Below, one piece after another: positions 1 to 42,721 of a stretch of 64,000 nucleotides of DNA. Position numbers and translations under genes: made by a program. Origin of the DNA: Pseudomonas sp. P5_109 (GTDB taxonomy: Bacteria; Pseudomonadota; Gammaproteobacteria; Pseudomonadales; Pseudomonadaceae); assembly GCF_034009455.1 (NCBI RefSeq), contig NZ_CP125380.1, positions 241,501 to 305,500 of the forward strand, given 5' to 3'. The notes beneath the pieces are model-generated. The model was not told where the DNA came from and made no database searches. It worked only from the letters and a program-made list of their open reading frames with translations. Numbering within the stretch: the stretch's first letter is position 1; each line of letters begins with the position of its first letter.

Positions 1-337
1 AGCAGGCTCGCAGGCGCGGAATAGGGCCTTCGCGAGTCTGGTTGAGCGGCCTGGCCAGCGCCGCTGCCTGGGTCAACAGGCATTGCGTTGACCCGTGAAA
101 TCGAACAATTACTGCTGACGCGATAAAAATAATTCGCGTCCGCCTGTAGTACCTGTCTGATGTTGCCTGACACAAAAGGCCGCGCATTATAACCAGCGTT
201 ACGGCATTCGGGGGCATCACGGATTGCCAGTGCAATGGCCGGTTTTCTGGCACTAAAGGAAAAATCTGCTAACAATGCACACGGTGCGTATAACGGCAGC
301 TACGCCATAATGCGCGCCGAGATCAAAGGAGCATCCA
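1..337. other. Leader region upstream of ompR, no gene seen
   Basis: I see no convincing coding region here on either strand. There is an 8-bp perfect inverted repeat (arms 70-77 and 87-94) without a T-run, so a hairpin rather than a clear terminator. In P. aeruginosa the gene on the far side of ompR is tex; no tex start is recognisable here. The stretch probably holds the ompR promoter, and an AAAGGAG ribosome binding site lies just before the ompR ATG. Confidence 0.5.
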
Positions 338-8484: not shown

Positions 8485-8784
8485 TCAGGCTGGGGCTTTC
8501 CAGTTCAACATGCGTTGCTGGGCGACTTTGAGCAGGTCGCAGCCGTCCTGGGTCAGCAGGTAGAGGGCGTGGGTGATGTGCGGGATGTCTTCGAGGTCGC
8601 CGTGTTTGAAGCATTGGCAGTGCAGGGTTTGCAGCAATTCGCTGGAAGCCCGGATGCGCTGGAGGGCGGCTTCGAGGATGTCTTGGGGGTTGGCTTCTGT
8701 GTCGATGATCAGGGGCGGAGAATCGGTGAGGTTGGTGTGGAGTGGTAGATAGCGTTCGTTGGTGAACGGGTTCCATTTGTTCAT
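8485..8784 (-). CDS. Small uncharacterised Pseudomonas protein
   Basis: About 99 residues (MNKWNPFTNERYLPLHTN...). It is a clear paralogue of the product of 9194-9484: both share IDTEA-P--IL-AA-QRIRA-S-LL-TL-C-CFK and ALYLLTQDG-D-L--A-QR. I do not recognise a characterised domain. The pattern PL-(I/V)-D followed by an amphipathic ALxxAxxLL helix loosely resembles the DUF3077 protein at 37626-37907. A TTG nine bases further upstream is an alternative start; the ATG at 8784 is preferred. The interval upstream holds a C4-like RNA element, and the gene's ribosome binding region shows partial complementarity to it. Presumably cytoplasmic, with no signal or membrane segment. Confidence 0.7.
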   Translation of the reverse strand: MNKWNPFTNERYLPLHTNLTDSPPLIIDTEANPQDILEAALQRIRASSELLQTLHCQCFKHGDLEDIPHITHALYLLTQDGCDLLKVAQQRMLNWKAPA

Positions 8785-8841
8785 GATGTGCAATCTCGGA
8801 TGTGCCAGAAAGGACCGCCATCATCGTGACCAATCGATGGG

Positions 8842-8923
8842 AGGCGACTGTGTTCGGGTTGGTCAACCGGTGAGATCTACGCACAGAACCGGCATGCCCG
8901 AAGGCATCCCAAACACAGCCGCC
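8842..8923 (-). ncRNA. C4-like antisense RNA element, copy 1
   Basis: On the minus strand this folds into an outer stem (8843-8854 with 8911-8922) closing two arms, one with the hairpin gatgccttcgggcatgcc. Loop segments 8859-8865 (b') and 8872-8884 (a') are complementary to sites on both sides: 8827-8833 and 8991-8997 match b', 8974-8982 matches a', and 8788-8797, over the ribosome binding site of the small gene, matches a' with a three-base deletion. This is the architecture of the C4 antisense RNA of phages P1/P7. Identification is by pattern, not covariance search. A related copy sits at 38074-38152. Confidence 0.6.
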
Positions 8924-9009
8924 ATATAGCGTGCAGACACAAAAAAGCGTCGGCAGCATACAACGGGTGCGTACGTAGATCTAATTCGAGTGACCAAGCC
9001 CGAGTCGCT

Positions 9010-9193: not shown

Positions 9194-9484
9194 TCAGAGG
9201 GTGAGTTTCGGCAAGCGCTGCCGGGCGATGTCGAGCATGTCGTTGCCGTCCTGGGTCAGCAGGTACAGGGCGCTGATAATCTTGGGGATGTCGCTCGCTT
9301 CGGCCTGTTTGAAGCATGTGCAATAAAGGGTTTCGAGCAGGTCGCTGGCGGCGCGGATGCGTTGTCGGGCGGCGTCGAGGATCTCGTAGGGGTCGGCCTC
9401 GGTATCAATGACCAGCACCGGGGTTTCGCTGTAGCGGGTCTTGAGTGGGTGGTAGCGGTTTGTCAGTGAGTCGGGTTTTTTCAT
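9194..9484 (-). CDS. Small uncharacterised Pseudomonas protein, paralogue
   Basis: A 96-residue protein begun at MKKPDSLTNRYHPL, chosen because AGGACT precedes this ATG at a good distance; a nine-residue upstream extension is less likely. It is a paralogue of 8485-8784. Here, unlike the other copy, the upstream 250 bp contain no C4-like element; instead a sigma-70-like pair TTGTTC-18 bp-TATAGT is seen on the minus strand near 9555-9584. The function is unknown. Two paralogues with and without the RNA module suggest independent regulation. Confidence 0.65.
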   Translation of the reverse strand: MKKPDSLTNRYHPLKTRYSETPVLVIDTEADPYEILDAARQRIRAASDLLETLYCTCFKQAEASDIPKIISALYLLTQDGNDMLDIARQRLPKLTL

Positions 9485-10027
9485 TGATTGAGTCCTGTGC
9501 GAAATCGGCAAGTGTTCCCGGCAGGCCGAGACACTGTTTTCAGCCGCGCTGGAAACTATAGGAGGGTATGGCGTTGCGGAACAAGACGGCTGAGATCGAC
9601 ACGCGTTGTAAGGGTTTTGTCATATTTTGAGGAAGGGGACTACACGTTGGAAGTGGGTTTTCAACGTGAAAGGGCGAGAGGTAAAAATGCCTACAGCGTT
9701 TTCAGTCGCTTCTCGCCAAGTCTCGGCAGAGGGGGGCTCGGACAATGTCGGGTGTTTCGAGTTTTGTGGTGGGTGTACTTGCTCTTCGCGGGCAAGCCCG
9801 CCCCCACAGATCTGAGTCGTACTCAAGTCTGTGGACGGCATAGATCCGTGTGGGAGCGGGCTTGCCCGCGAAGGCGATCTGACAGTCCCATCATCTCTGA
9901 AGCCGTGGATTGCCGTCCCGCCATTCGCTGTATCATCCAGTATCGTTTTTGCCCCCGACCTTTTCTCGATTCGCTGTGATTGCCGGCTAGGCTTTTGACT
10001 CCGCAGCGGTCAACGGAGTGACAGCTT
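9485..10027. other. Gap with a REP pair upstream of recQ
   Basis: No gene is recognisable. A REP doublet lies at 9783-9876 (ttcgcgggcaagcccgcccc and its inverse). The remainder probably holds the promoter of the small minus-strand gene at the left and of recQ at the right. Confidence 0.6.
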
Positions 10028-31453: not shown

Positions 31454-31468
31454 AACGCGCTAAACCTT

Positions 31469-31557
31469 GTGGGAGCGGGCTTGCTCGCGAAAGCGGTGTA
31501 TCAGCAAAGTTGATATCGGCTGACACGACGCCTTCGCGAGCAAGCCCGCTCCCACAG
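31469..31557. repeat. REP doublet, gcgggctt-type
   Basis: Inverted tgtgggagcgggcttgctcg arms, next to the 3' end of the receptor gene. Confidence 0.88.
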
Positions 31558-37625: not shown

Positions 37626-37907
37626 TTACTGACAGCGATTGTTCACCGGCGCATCCAACACCTTCACCACATCATCGATGATCGCCTTACTCATATCCTG
37701 CAAAAAATGCGACGCCCAGGCGTGCCGATCAGTATCGCGAACCATGGCCGCGTCTGATGCGAGCAGCTTGGCAACGTGGAGTAGATCGGAAGCGTGGTAG
37801 AGAGCCTGGATAACCGGAACGCCAGCGTTGACGCGAAACAGCGGTTCGTTGGCGTGGAAGGAGAAGTGGGTGAGGCCGATGGTTTTCAGATCTTGGGGAT
37901 TGGTCAT
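37626..37907 (-). CDS. DUF3077 family protein
   Basis: A 93-residue protein with the DUF3077-like core LFRVNAGVPVIQALYHASDL followed by LHVAKLLASDAAM. The function of the family is unknown; proteins of this type are abundant in Pseudomonas. Its ATG overlaps the stop codon of a 38-residue upstream reading frame (ATGA), and its GGAGGT ribosome binding site lies inside that frame, so translation is coupled to the leader. The leader in turn lies under a C4-like antisense RNA element. This regulatory layout recalls the icd-ant genes of phage P1. Confidence 0.72.
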   Translation of the reverse strand: MTNPQDLKTIGLTHFSFHANEPLFRVNAGVPVIQALYHASDLLHVAKLLASDAAMVRDTDRHAWASHFLQDMSKAIIDDVVKVLDAPVNNRCQ

Positions 37908-38020
37908 TGGGCACCTCCGCTGATTGGGAGGAATTGAGTATTTGCATGCCTTCGAAGAAGGGGCGGCGTTGATACAAAGAACGTGAAAACACAGATTTTG
38001 GACGAATCAATTTTATACAT
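37904..38020 (-). CDS. Leader peptide coupled to DUF3077 gene
   Basis: A 38-residue reading frame starting MYKIDSSKICVFTFFV and ending in an ATGA overlap with the DUF3077 gene. It has a good ribosome binding site (AACGATAGGAGCTCGACC before ATG). That site is complementary to a loop of the C4-like RNA: 38029-38037 against 38106-38114, nine pairs with one G-U. A leader with this position and coupling corresponds to icd of phage P1, whose translation C4 RNA blocks. The peptide sequence itself may be irrelevant. Too short for most gene callers. Confidence 0.6.
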   Translation of the reverse strand: MYKIDSSKICVFTFFVSTPPLLRRHANTQFLPISGGAQ

Positions 38021-38073
38021 GGTCGAGCTCCTATCGTTGAGGAACTGCCACGAACCGTCGCCAAACGATTATG

Positions 38074-38152
38074 GGTGGCAGCTGTGCGCAGGTTGGCGAA
38101 CCGGGACAATAGGAACCCGGCAGACCCGAAGGTCTCCCGCGCACAGCTACCA
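38074..38152 (-). ncRNA. C4-like antisense RNA element, copy 2
   Basis: The minus strand folds into an outer stem (38075-38089 with 38139-38152) closing two arms, one with gggagaccttcgggtctgcc. Loop b' (38093-38099) is complementary to 38058-38064 and to 38229-38235; loop a' (38106-38114) is complementary to the leader ribosome binding site and to 38211-38218. The upstream T8 tract near 38174-38180, within a hairpin-T context, marks a probable boundary. The match to phage C4 RNA is by structure and layout; no covariance search was run. Confidence 0.65.
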
Positions 38153-38261
38153 TAACGGGAAAATACGAGCGAAAAAAAACGCCAGCAATCGTTATGGTGG
38201 CGCCTGTGCGCCTATTGTTTGGGTCGGGTCGCCAAACCCGGTCGCTGATTTTGCAGCGATG

Positions 38262-38292
38262 TGGGCAGCCTAGCGTGGGGCAGGGCGATTCG
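38262..38292 (-). promoter_or_regulatory. Candidate promoter of C4-like copy 2
   Basis: On the minus strand TTGCGA, a 17-bp spacer and TAGGCT lie just ahead of the conserved hairpin tcgctgcaaaatcagcga and the C4-like unit. Confidence 0.4.
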
Positions 38293-38448
38293 CAACCTAG
38301 GATCTTGGCCAACAGGGCTTGTCAACTCATTACACCACGTAACGAATGAAGTTCCCGCCCCCACCTTTATCCCCTCCCGCCAACCCCATACATTCATCTC
38401 CAACGCCTCTCCCATCATCCCGACGGGAAGGTCACTGGAGTTTCCCTC

Positions 38449-40348: not shown

Positions 40349-42721
40349 TTAGAGTAGGTCCATGGTGGTCATGGAATCAGCCATGCGGTAGCCCATCGCT
40401 TTGTAACCCGCCTGGCGCTTATCCCACATCCTCATCAGCGCGACATTACCCTCGTCAACAAAGTCGATCACTCGCACGTCGGCCTTATCGGCATGTGATC
40501 GATGCAACCGCCCCGCATATTGCTGAAGGATTCCCTTCCATGAGATGGGCATTGCCAGCACCAGCGTGTCCAACGGTGGATGATCGAAGCCTTCACCTAC
40601 TAGTTTTCCTGTTGCCAACAGCACTCGTGGAGCATCGGGGGGAAGGGACTCAAGCTCATGCATACGGGAAATCCGCTGCTTCTTAGGCACTCGCCCATGA
40701 AGCGTGAAAAGGTTATGCACGCGCTGCTTCAATTCTAATTCGAGGGCATCCACATGTTCCGTCCGCTCTGTTAGCACTAGGATTTTCCTACCCTCGTTGT
40801 ACGCCAGCTCAATCTCCGAGACGATTTTGGCTGTCCGCTCAGAGTCGTCGACTAGACGCCGAAAAACGTCCTGAATCCCAAAGCCGTCGGGGACCACTAT
40901 TGGTTTGGGCAGCAATCGAGGCACGACAGATAGGTCATGGGGCGCACTCGCTGGTCGAGCAGCAGAATGTCGGATCGGTCCGCACTGCATGAAAATAATA
41001 GGCTGCTGCCCATCTCGGCGTACTGGGGTTGCTGTGAGTCCCAATACGTACCGCGCGGTCGCGCTCCTCAGTAGTGCCTCGAATGACACTGCTGATAGGT
41101 GATGACACTCATCAACGATGATCTGGCCGTAGTTTTTCACCTGATCGCTGATCTCGCCTTTTCGCGATAACGACTGCATTACGGCAATGTCGATGATGCC
41201 TGTAAGCTTCGCTTTTCCGCCCCCAAGAGTTCCAACGACACCATTCCCGACTCCCAAGAACACCTGCAAGCGCTCTTGCCACTGCCTTAACAGTTCCGTC
41301 CGATGCACAAGCACCAACGTGTTAATGCCACGTGCGGCAATCAACGCAGCAGCACTCACCGTTTTACCGAAAGCTGTCGGTGCGCAGAGGATACCGGTGT
41401 CATGACTTAGCATTGCGCTGACAGCAGCCTCTTGGTCAGAACGCAGGGTCCCGAGAAAGCTCACGTCGATGGGGTCGCCCGCGAAGCGTTCGTCTTTAAG
41501 AATAGGGGTAACCCCGTTTTCCTCTAAAAGCTCCAGCGCAGCATCCAAACAGCCACGTGGTAACGCAATATGTTTGGGGAAGTTCTGGGCACAGCCGATA
41601 ATCCTTGGCTTGTTCCACACTGACATGCGCATGGCCTGAGCTTTGTAGAACTCAGGATTTTGAAAGGCAGCGAGCCGGACAAGCTGGTTTGCCAATGGCT
41701 GTGGCAATTCCGACTTTTCAAAGTAAATTAAGTTAGCCAGCGTGATGTTGACAGCAGCAGGCAACGGGCATGTCAATTTACGTGATCTCGATTCACGATC
41801 TTTCCAAGGTTCTGCATCACCTTCGTCATCGACATAGGCGACCCCTAGAGGGTCCCGATTACCCATCGCCTGGATAATAACGGGCTGGATATCTTCTGGA
41901 CTCATGCGCTGAATCGATGCCAGGAAGGCCCATTGATCAGGATGAGGCTCAAGCGAGTCGTCTACAAAAACGCTATTGTTTTGGGCCCTGGCCCGCTTTT
42001 GTAAAGGGAGCGCGATGAGATTTCCAAAGCCGCCTTTGGGCATATAGTCCTGGTTTGGAAACAGTCGATCATAGGAGCTGAGCGCCAACTGGCGGGTGCG
42101 CTCACAGGCATGACTGATGATTGCAGCACCGAGGCGGCGCGCATCGCAGGCAGGAACATTACGCTTAAAGAAAATCCAGCCATGAGCCCCTTGGCCTGAG
42201 CGCGATATTTCCAGCGCCACCGGGACGTTCAGCTCATGGCATGACTGCACAAAAGCTTTGGAATCATCACGCCATTCGGCCTCATCGAAGTCGACTGCCA
42301 AAAAATAACAAGTGTCATCAGAGAGTAGGGGGTAGATACCAACGACCACTTCGCCCGCCAGATGGCGATAGACCACCTCATCGGTCAGCGGAAGCAGCTG
42401 GCGGTTACCGCAGTCGCCACATTTAATTCGTGGCTTCTCACAAACGCCAGGCCTCCATTCGTTTGCGCAAGCGGGTGCGTATCCTGATTTGCCTGCCTTG
42501 CTTTCCCAGCGGATGGGATAAACGTCCGTCCTACCACGAAACAAGCTTCGGAATAGGGCAAGCTTTCCATCAGTATCGAGTTGCTGTGATTGTTCTGCTT
42601 GGACAATCACTATCTTGACTGGCTCAGCAGGCGGGCGCCATTCGATGCCATGAGCATCCAGCAAGGCAACCAATCTTGCATTCTCAGCCCTTAGCTTCGC
42701 CACCAGACTAGTGTCTATCAC
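40349..42721 (-). CDS. AEP primase-like/SF2 helicase (TOTE-type) protein
   Basis: A 790-residue protein with a GTG start (AAGG upstream). Residues 85-104 hold a cysteine cluster (C85, C94, C101, C104) and residues 125-190 an archaeo-eukaryotic primase-like fold with the catalytic D144-x-D146 (FLAVDFDEAEW) and SGQGAHGWIFF with H180. The second half is an SF2 helicase: Walker A APTAFGKT, DECHH, LTATPVRRDG and QYAGRLHR. This architecture is the one Pfam labels the TOTE conflict system primase domain, which suggests a nucleic-acid-sensing defence or conflict role. No nuclease domain is apparent in the chain. It sits alone at the distal end of the island. Confidence 0.8.
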   Translation of the reverse strand: MIDTSLVAKLRAENARLVALLDAHGIEWRPPAEPVKIVIVQAEQSQQLDTDGKLALFRSLFRGRTDVYPIRWESKAGKSGYAPACANEWRPGVCEKPRIKCGDCGNRQLLPLTDEVVYRHLAGEVVVGIYPLLSDDTCYFLAVDFDEAEWRDDSKAFVQSCHELNVPVALEISRSGQGAHGWIFFKRNVPACDARRLGAAIISHACERTRQLALSSYDRLFPNQDYMPKGGFGNLIALPLQKRARAQNNSVFVDDSLEPHPDQWAFLASIQRMSPEDIQPVIIQAMGNRDPLGVAYVDDEGDAEPWKDRESRSRKLTCPLPAAVNITLANLIYFEKSELPQPLANQLVRLAAFQNPEFYKAQAMRMSVWNKPRIIGCAQNFPKHIALPRGCLDAALELLEENGVTPILKDERFAGDPIDVSFLGTLRSDQEAAVSAMLSHDTGILCAPTAFGKTVSAAALIAARGINTLVLVHRTELLRQWQERLQVFLGVGNGVVGTLGGGKAKLTGIIDIAVMQSLSRKGEISDQVKNYGQIIVDECHHLSAVSFEALLRSATARYVLGLTATPVRRDGQQPIIFMQCGPIRHSAARPASAPHDLSVVPRLLPKPIVVPDGFGIQDVFRRLVDDSERTAKIVSEIELAYNEGRKILVLTERTEHVDALELELKQRVHNLFTLHGRVPKKQRISRMHELESLPPDAPRVLLATGKLVGEGFDHPPLDTLVLAMPISWKGILQQYAGRLHRSHADKADVRVIDFVDEGNVALMRMWDKRQAGYKAMGYRMADSMTTMDLL

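Follow-up and report, generated by a model that had tools for sequence, protein, structure and literature searches.

A predicted C4 antisense switch upstream of a DUF3077 gene, one of about 28 chromosomal cassettes in Pseudomonas sp. P5_109

The chromosome of Pseudomonas sp. P5_109 carries what is probably a genuine C4 antisense switch, located in a stretch of 64,000 nucleotides that we refer to as the window, in which a C4 RNA would block the ribosome site of a short leader and, by coupling, a DUF3077 gene, and in which an IsrK-like decoy may relieve the block. C4 RNAs are known chiefly from phage immunity and belong to the P1/P7 immunity system. The C4 family has been described before, as has its presence in many copies in one bacterium. 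What appears to be new, within the searched literature, is the presence of tens of chromosomal C4s matched to small genes of their own, with pairing codes that change together.

Results

The C4 cassette of the window

The initial annotation had proposed a structured minus-strand RNA at 38074-38152 and, as a check, a search with the Rfam C4 model. When this search was run on the minus strand, we obtained a RF01695 match at 38157-38071 that encloses the proposed RNA; it scored 88.0 bits, where the gathering score is 45, with an E value of 4.7e-16 in the window. The 87-nt element folded with -50.4 kcal/mol (z -6.1), and 0 of 200 shuffles were equally good. It has the closing stem and the two hairpins of the family, with covariation, as well as two unpaired segments complementary to downstream sites, one of which lies over a ribosome site. 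Our own covariance model, R1, gave 98.4 bits for the window C4, which is a member of its training set.

In the P1 record, the hairpin loop directed at the ribosome site is called b′ and the unpaired strand after it a′, so that the two names had been reversed in the initial annotation; hereafter, "proximal" stands for P1 a and "ribosome-site" for P1 b. The hairpin loop of the window C4 (38106-38115, P1 b′) is complementary to the leader ribosome site: as claimed initially, 38106-38114 forms nine pairs, one of them G-U, with the minus-strand target at 38029-38037 (ACGATAGGA, P1 b2), and when G-U pairs were tolerated the run grew to 13 (38025-38037) and covered AGGAG. The unpaired strand (38093-38099, P1 a′) forms the seven exact Watson-Crick pairs that had been predicted with the proximal target TTGGCGA at 38058-38064 (P1 a2), a 7-nt site that L072, a close relative, has as well. 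With its own target, the window C4 had a joint pairing energy of -30.4, which was reached by 0 of 756 non-cognate C4/target pairs from the same genome.

Upstream of the C4 lie features that the initial annotation had not mentioned. A c4-a1b1 element was found on the same strand at 38221-38273 (RF03163, 54.6 bits, cut-off 46.7), and each of the two target sites has a copy there. The proximal copy (P1 a1, TTTGGCGA, 38229-38236) stands in a hairpin loop and holds the exact complement of C4 38093-38099. The ribosome-site copy (P1 b1, ACAATAGG, 38211-38218) was assigned by position; in the relatives L072, L076, L109, L113 and L114 this copy forms 8 Watson-Crick pairs with the same loop. An isrK match at 38260-38172 is marginal (RF01394, 51.9 bits, cut-off 50) and includes a predicted intrinsic terminator with a run of 8 T (38172-38204), at which a short IsrK-like RNA would end; the consensus terminator scan did not list 38204-38172. 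The predicted promoter at 38267-38295, also on the minus strand, consists of TTGCGA (38295-38290) and TAGGCT (38272-38267) separated by 17 nt and fits TTGNNN-16..18-TANNNT, and a stricter consensus promoter scan gave none at 38267-38295.

Downstream of the C4, a leader of 38 codons in an icd/orf45-like position (38020-37904) starts 50 nt past the C4 match, and its stop overlaps the DUF3077 start as ATGA, in agreement with the initial description. The minus-strand DUF3077 gene (37626-37907) has 93 codons, and its product, searched without the first Met, matched PF11275 with 113.2 bits. The scanned neighbours were Fic, tautomerase, DsbA-like, SDR and OprD genes, with no phage genes among them. 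A TOTE conflict-system type primase-helicase gene lies near the cassette (40349-42721, minus strand; PF22548, 343.5 bits).

Collectively, the family assignment, the pairings with both downstream sites, a leader coupled to DUF3077 and the layout of P1 immI support, at the sequence level, the phage-type C4 antisense control of DUF3077 that had been put forward, and we infer that C4 would repress the leader and DUF3077. Since the controlled gene is DUF3077 and not an antirepressor, the cassette is assigned to the C4 RNA family and not to the antirepressor operons; antirepressor-type genes follow the C4 at two other cassettes of the genome.

In type I toxin-antitoxin systems, the antitoxin RNA is encoded opposite to or divergent from the toxin mRNA. 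This class was considered for the window cassette and rejected, as the C4 lies upstream on the same strand.

The window contains a second C4, also absent from the initial annotation (8837-8929, minus strand; RF01695, 70.7 bits), followed after 52 nt by the start of a small ORF of 99 codons without Pfam family (8485-8784, minus strand). Just upstream of that cassette, a further small minus-strand ORF (9194-9511) resembles the 8485-8784 ORF by eye and is without a C4 match of its own. Other Rfam matches in the window were the Pseudomonas sRNA P34 (14449-14846, 176.6 bits) and the radC RNA motif (44862-44729, 76.1 bits).

C4 cassettes across the genome

In the 6.96 Mb genome (one contig), we found 29 C4 matches, 28 of them over the cut-off, and 30 c4-a1b1 matches, 12 of them over the cut-off; an a1b1 lies 39-65 nt upstream of 26 of the 29 C4s. 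DUF6124 had 22 matches and DUF3077 had 5, with one place common to both, which makes 26 distinct places, 3 of them without C4. A DUF6124 (20) or DUF3077 (3) domain is located 89-205 nt downstream on the same strand for 23 of the 29 C4s. The suggestion that a small host gene family is under C4 control understated the extent, with 29 C4 matches and DUF6124 commoner than DUF3077 downstream of them.

Start codons, which were picked manually as those behind the ribosome site, lie 46-56 nt past the C4 match in all 28 copies over the cut-off (26 ATG, one GTG and one TTG, L028 at 52). Five of these 28 lack a DUF domain downstream: one (L009) precedes a Bro-N protein (PF02498, 44 bits; anti-repressor in PHROG), and the other four precede small ORFs without Pfam family that align only weakly with other cassette ORFs. 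A second Bro-N gene (38.3 bits) comes after a divergent C4 (L243) whose 26.5 bits fall within the range of REP-like false positives and which was accepted only for matching sites visible by eye.

The C4 structure is preserved among the 28 paralogs: 97.8% of cells are paired and 15 of the 27 pairs have changes in both partners, and neither value was reached in any of 500 shuffles. The GG that opens the closing stem is invariant in the 28 copies, and a GG-type start motif is given for C4 processing in P1/P7 and Acinetobacter baumannii (PMC5320573). The promoter pattern TTGNNN-16..18-TANNNT was present upstream of 22 of the 28 C4s, compared with a mean of 1.5 and a maximum of 4 in mononucleotide shuffles.

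Structured repeats such as REP-like palindromes might score as C4 by chance. A palindrome of this kind in the window (31468-31556) had 28.3 bits with R1 and shows that false positives can arise at scores under about 30 bits, and L129 had 26 bits. The 28 copies, with Rfam scores of 52.9-88 bits, the start codon at 46-56 nt and matching sites, leave virtually no chance for this explanation, which is refuted for the matches over 50 bits.

Some cassettes of the genome are decayed: in L242 a truncated C4 is fused to the end of the gene, L245 and L247 are gene copies that have lost C4, and L244 is a lone a1b1 remnant beside an apparent tRNA gene.

Private pairing codes

We compared the pairing segments of the 28 C4s, which were delimited by simple offsets relative to the ends of each match and not by structural alignment. 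Scaffold columns were 78% identical on average between copies, compared with 37% for the hairpin loop; where scaffold identity was at least 90% (20 pairs), the loop was 46% and the proximal segment 71% identical. The hairpin loops are all different, and there are 20 different proximal segments.

Cognate pairs had lower mean duplex energies than non-cognate ones both at the ribosome site (-14.5 vs -9.2) and at the proximal site (-10.2 vs -5.7), and the cognate means of four single pairing measures were each reached by 0 of 20000 permutations. The joint pairing energy was -24.7 for cognate and -14.9 for non-cognate pairs (sd 3.6). By this measure, 23 C4s had their own target as the best of 28, the exceptions being L004, L010, L013, L014, which has lost most of the proximal pairing, and L028; from the target side, the own C4 was best for 21 of 28. 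Single energies ranked the own target first in 14 of 28 (ribosome-site) and 13 of 28 (proximal), which is probably due to shared AGGAG cores and shared proximal segments.

Run lengths were compared as well. A proximal run of at least 7 was found in 25 of 28 cognate and 80 of 756 non-cognate pairs of the genome, and in 38 of 39 cognate and 468 of 1482 non-cognate pairs from other genomes of the genus. For ribosome-site runs of at least 8, the figures were 16 of 28 vs 118 of 756 in the own genome, and 37 of 39 vs 313 of 1482 in the other genomes. As most copies have a pairing code and a small gene of their own, largely separate channels would be expected, and cross-talk is possible since some copies have proximal segments in common.

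Code changes, leaders and loss of C4 at DUF3077 loci

A total of 66 named DUF3077 loci were found, all titled Pseudomonas, and 44 of them have a C4 upstream on the same strand, four weak reverse-strand echoes being ignored in this count. The proximal segment of the 44 falls into four 7-nt cores (in 5, 11, 25 and 3 loci). At every one of the 44 loci it forms a run of at least 7 nt with the downstream site, and at 43 of them it does so with the upstream site. The right-hand flank of the window cassette (tautomerase side) is common to 25 of the 66 loci; the 17 of those that have a C4 carry three different cores, each of them matched.

A leader of 20-38 codons is present in 40 of the 44 loci, with its start behind the ribosome-site target. 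It overlaps DUF3077 in 29 loci and stops 5-7 nt ahead of it in 11; in the 4 loci without leader, the target is on the DUF3077 ribosome site itself. Among related loci, the leader sequence is poorly kept while its position and stop are kept, a pattern that fits a leader working by being translated.

The other 22 of the 66 loci have no C4 by R1. In 12 of them we read 330 nt upstream, the remaining ten (L083, L088 and L130-L137) being partial gene matches or having little upstream DNA. The promoter pattern and the first upstream hairpin are kept in 11 of these 12, which indicates that the DUF3077 gene can persist without C4; the exception, L126, retains the 3′ half of C4. Seven loci (L073, L085, L086, L089, L092, L094 and L105, upstream of 3001) keep the leader and ATGA, and C4 is missing. 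In these, GAGAACUC, the upstream segment left behind, is able to base-pair with GAGUUCU(C/U) at the ribosome site, and the three that were folded had z -2.9 to -3.2. This looks like a switch from an antisense RNA to a cis-acting hairpin.

These data also bear on the idea that IsrK-like structural switching of the long transcript is the main event, with the processed C4 being a by-product or acting as a termination factor like P4 CI. The RF01394 match at the window cassette would suit such a mechanism, as would the activation by a short RNA reported for Salmonella, where the stable downstream RNA was likened to P4 CI (PMC4825925). We nevertheless consider it unlikely, as the complementarity between C4 and the downstream sites is itself the conserved feature, and T-runs ahead of C4 were found in a minority of cassettes (28 of 67). 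With T-runs in this minority only, the decoy step of the C4 antisense switch that we favour may not be general.

C4 in other genomes and in viral contigs

Counts of C4 in 39 genus-mates, which are lower bounds with 82 candidates scored per genome, ranged from 0 to at least 42 (median at least 13), and at least 25 of the 39 had 10 or more copies. DUF6124 counts in the same genomes were 0-43 and correlated with those of C4 (Spearman 0.85). Some genomes of the genus combine many C4s with few DUF6124 (38 and 2), and there other small genes come after C4. In 39 C4 loci from 21 genus-mates, the first ORF passing the filter starts 44-56 nt past C4, and in 17 of these loci it is a leader of 28-57 codons with a second small ORF directly after it. 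A C4-linked leader of 52-54 codons ending in GG-A/T-Q/K recurs in L202, L213, L217, L223, L225, L226, L235, L239 and L240; it overlaps a second small gene and its sequence looks conserved, unlike that of the DUF3077 leader.

Outside the genus, C4 was detected in at least 11 of 186 genomes of the class (1-4 copies each, with 22 candidates scored per genome) and in 6 of 36 genomes of the order (1-6 copies), one genome being common to both samples. A proximal run of at least 7 was present in 27 of 28 C4 loci outside the genus, a figure for cognate pairs only, with no non-cognate control. Six first ORFs outside the genus, chosen as phage-regulator-like, encode Bro-N (3), Rha (2) and P22_AR_N (1) proteins. 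C4 thus generally matches a site just downstream, within the genus as well as beyond it; a large C4 expansion was seen, within these samples, only in this genus.

Because C4 belongs to the P1/P7 immunity system, these RNAs could instead act mainly in trans on incoming phages with matching immunity regions, as a superinfection barrier in which the adjacent gene is secondary. Targeting of incoming phages is one of the options offered by the authors of the A. baumannii study (PMC5320573). Such a role seems very unlikely to be the main one here, given that C4s are matched to the site just downstream both inside and outside the genus.

The cassette might also be a prophage relic, that is, the remains of a phage immunity region that is recognisable and inactive in the host. 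Several observations are in keeping with this: two cassettes (L009 and L243) precede Bro-N antirepressor-type proteins, the genome has the decayed copies L242, L244, L245 and L247, C4 accompanies DUF6124 or DUF3077 at 36 of 45 viral-contig loci (a count that takes phage cargo and host flanks together), and DUF3077 matches the PHROG family phrog_36471 (no function given) with 1.8e-11. However, the 29 C4 matches are dispersed with a median gap of 142 kb, the scanned neighbours of the window cassette are not phage genes, complementarity has outlasted the code changes at all 44 loci, and searches of annotated phage records gave no match for DUF3077 and one for DUF6124, with none for DUF6124 in plasmid records. 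On balance, an inactive relic is quite unlikely. In the viral contigs L161 and L157, C4 is followed by DUF6124-like ORFs, two in a row in L161, and these are possibly phage-carried cassettes.

DUF3077 and DUF6124 proteins

The model of the DUF3077 protein shows a helical hairpin together with a short pair of strands; its mean pLDDT is 80, and values across the five models ran from 54.8 to 80.0. DUF6124 was modelled as a helical hairpin (pLDDT 85). Structure searches gave no outstanding match. The initial annotation knew of no description of DUF3077 genes under C4, and this holds in the searched literature, where DUF6124 has no mention. The single paper there that names DUF3077 lists a DUF3077 pseudogene among the mutated genes of evolved P. 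putida (PMC9630843), in a passage that is not about C4.

Discussion

In the mechanism that we propose, one promoter upstream of 38267 would drive the whole transcript, from which C4 would be cut out, probably by RNase P at the GG of the closing stem as suggested by P1 and A. baumannii. Through its two segments, whose complementarity is seen in the sequence, C4 would pair with the two sites just downstream and cover the leader ribosome site. The leader would then go untranslated and DUF3077, whose start overlaps the leader stop, would stay silent. Transcripts ending at the predicted terminator before C4 would be short IsrK-like RNAs carrying both target-site copies, and by analogy with IsrK of Salmonella Gifsy-1 they could sequester C4 and so switch on the gene. 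The window cassette would be one of about 28, most of them with a pairing code and a small gene of their own, which may operate as largely separate channels.

If this is true, DUF6124, DUF3077 and other unnamed small protein families would come under one regulatory logic, and a phage antisense module would have been turned into tens of parallel host switches that form a natural set of largely insulated translation regulators. Code changes are, moreover, kept together at three sites. The cassettes also offer a candidate, directly testable answer to the question of C4 targets, namely the gene about 50 nt downstream, mostly with one code per copy, in the genus and beyond. A more speculative reading, which we regard as rather improbable, is that the cassettes are some 30-40 mutually insulated barcoded RNA switches sensing phage-type RNA, in which a matching phage or foreign decoy or C4 releases the small helical protein of that channel, and selection diversifies the codes so that channels stay separate and phages are tracked.

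Among the closest known arrangements is that of P1 immI (AF234172), which has the same order as the window: promoters, a1, b1, C4, a2, b2, a first ORF and an ATGA overlap with a second ORF. The P1 C4 scored 68.8 bits in Rfam and 49.5 bits with R1, and the P1 c4-a1b1 had 51 bits, both Rfam scores being over the cut-off. Nucleotides 51-57 of P1 C4 (unpaired strand) match a2, and nucleotides 37-44 (hairpin loop) match b2. P1 icd starts 50 nt past the annotated C4 (47 past the model end), as the window leader starts 50 nt past the C4 match, and icd overlaps ant1 by ATGA as the leader overlaps DUF3077. The two differ in that the gene controlled in P1 encodes an antirepressor and the phage has a C1 operator, whereas the window cassette has DUF3077, is chromosomal and is one of about 28. 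C4, icd and ant of P1 are treated in PMC8198154.

A second counterpart is isrK-orf45-anrP of Salmonella Gifsy-1, which, as published, has IsrK and a terminator upstream, a stable processed RNA (STnc1160) and a short ORF coupled to the gene (PMC4825925). In that work, short IsrK activates the translationally silent isrK-orf45-anrP mRNA through the coupled ORF, and plasmid-borne IsrK increased the output of an anrP translation fusion 139-fold, an effect that required the upstream ORF. STnc1160 and IsrK are among the highly transcribed Gifsy-1 RNAs according to PMC7067206. Unlike the window cassette, Gifsy-1 is a prophage, its gene encodes the antirepressor-like AnrP, and its processed RNA was compared with P4 CI (PMC4825925).

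The window C4 and c4-a1b1 belong to the same covariance families as the motifs of Weinberg et al. 2010 (PMC2864571), whose motif lists, in the passages considered, name Proteobacteria or Gammaproteobacteria and phages but give no gene-level targets; PMC5320573 cites that study for predicted C4s in several groups, Pseudomonadales included. In further reports, isrK and C4 appear next to each other in a set of small RNA candidates from Burkholderia cenocepacia (PMC4603805), both are mentioned in Xylella (PMC12189769), and both are covered by a review (PMC12197685). A multi-copy case is Group 1 of A. baumannii AB5075, described as 21 C4-like RNAs with a variable pairing loop that are highly expressed, apparently processed, start at GGW and have far more reads than the upstream part (PMC5320573). 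The portion of that paper considered here names no targets and suggests phage or bacterial RNAs, whereas in the genome of the window most C4s have a matched gene downstream.
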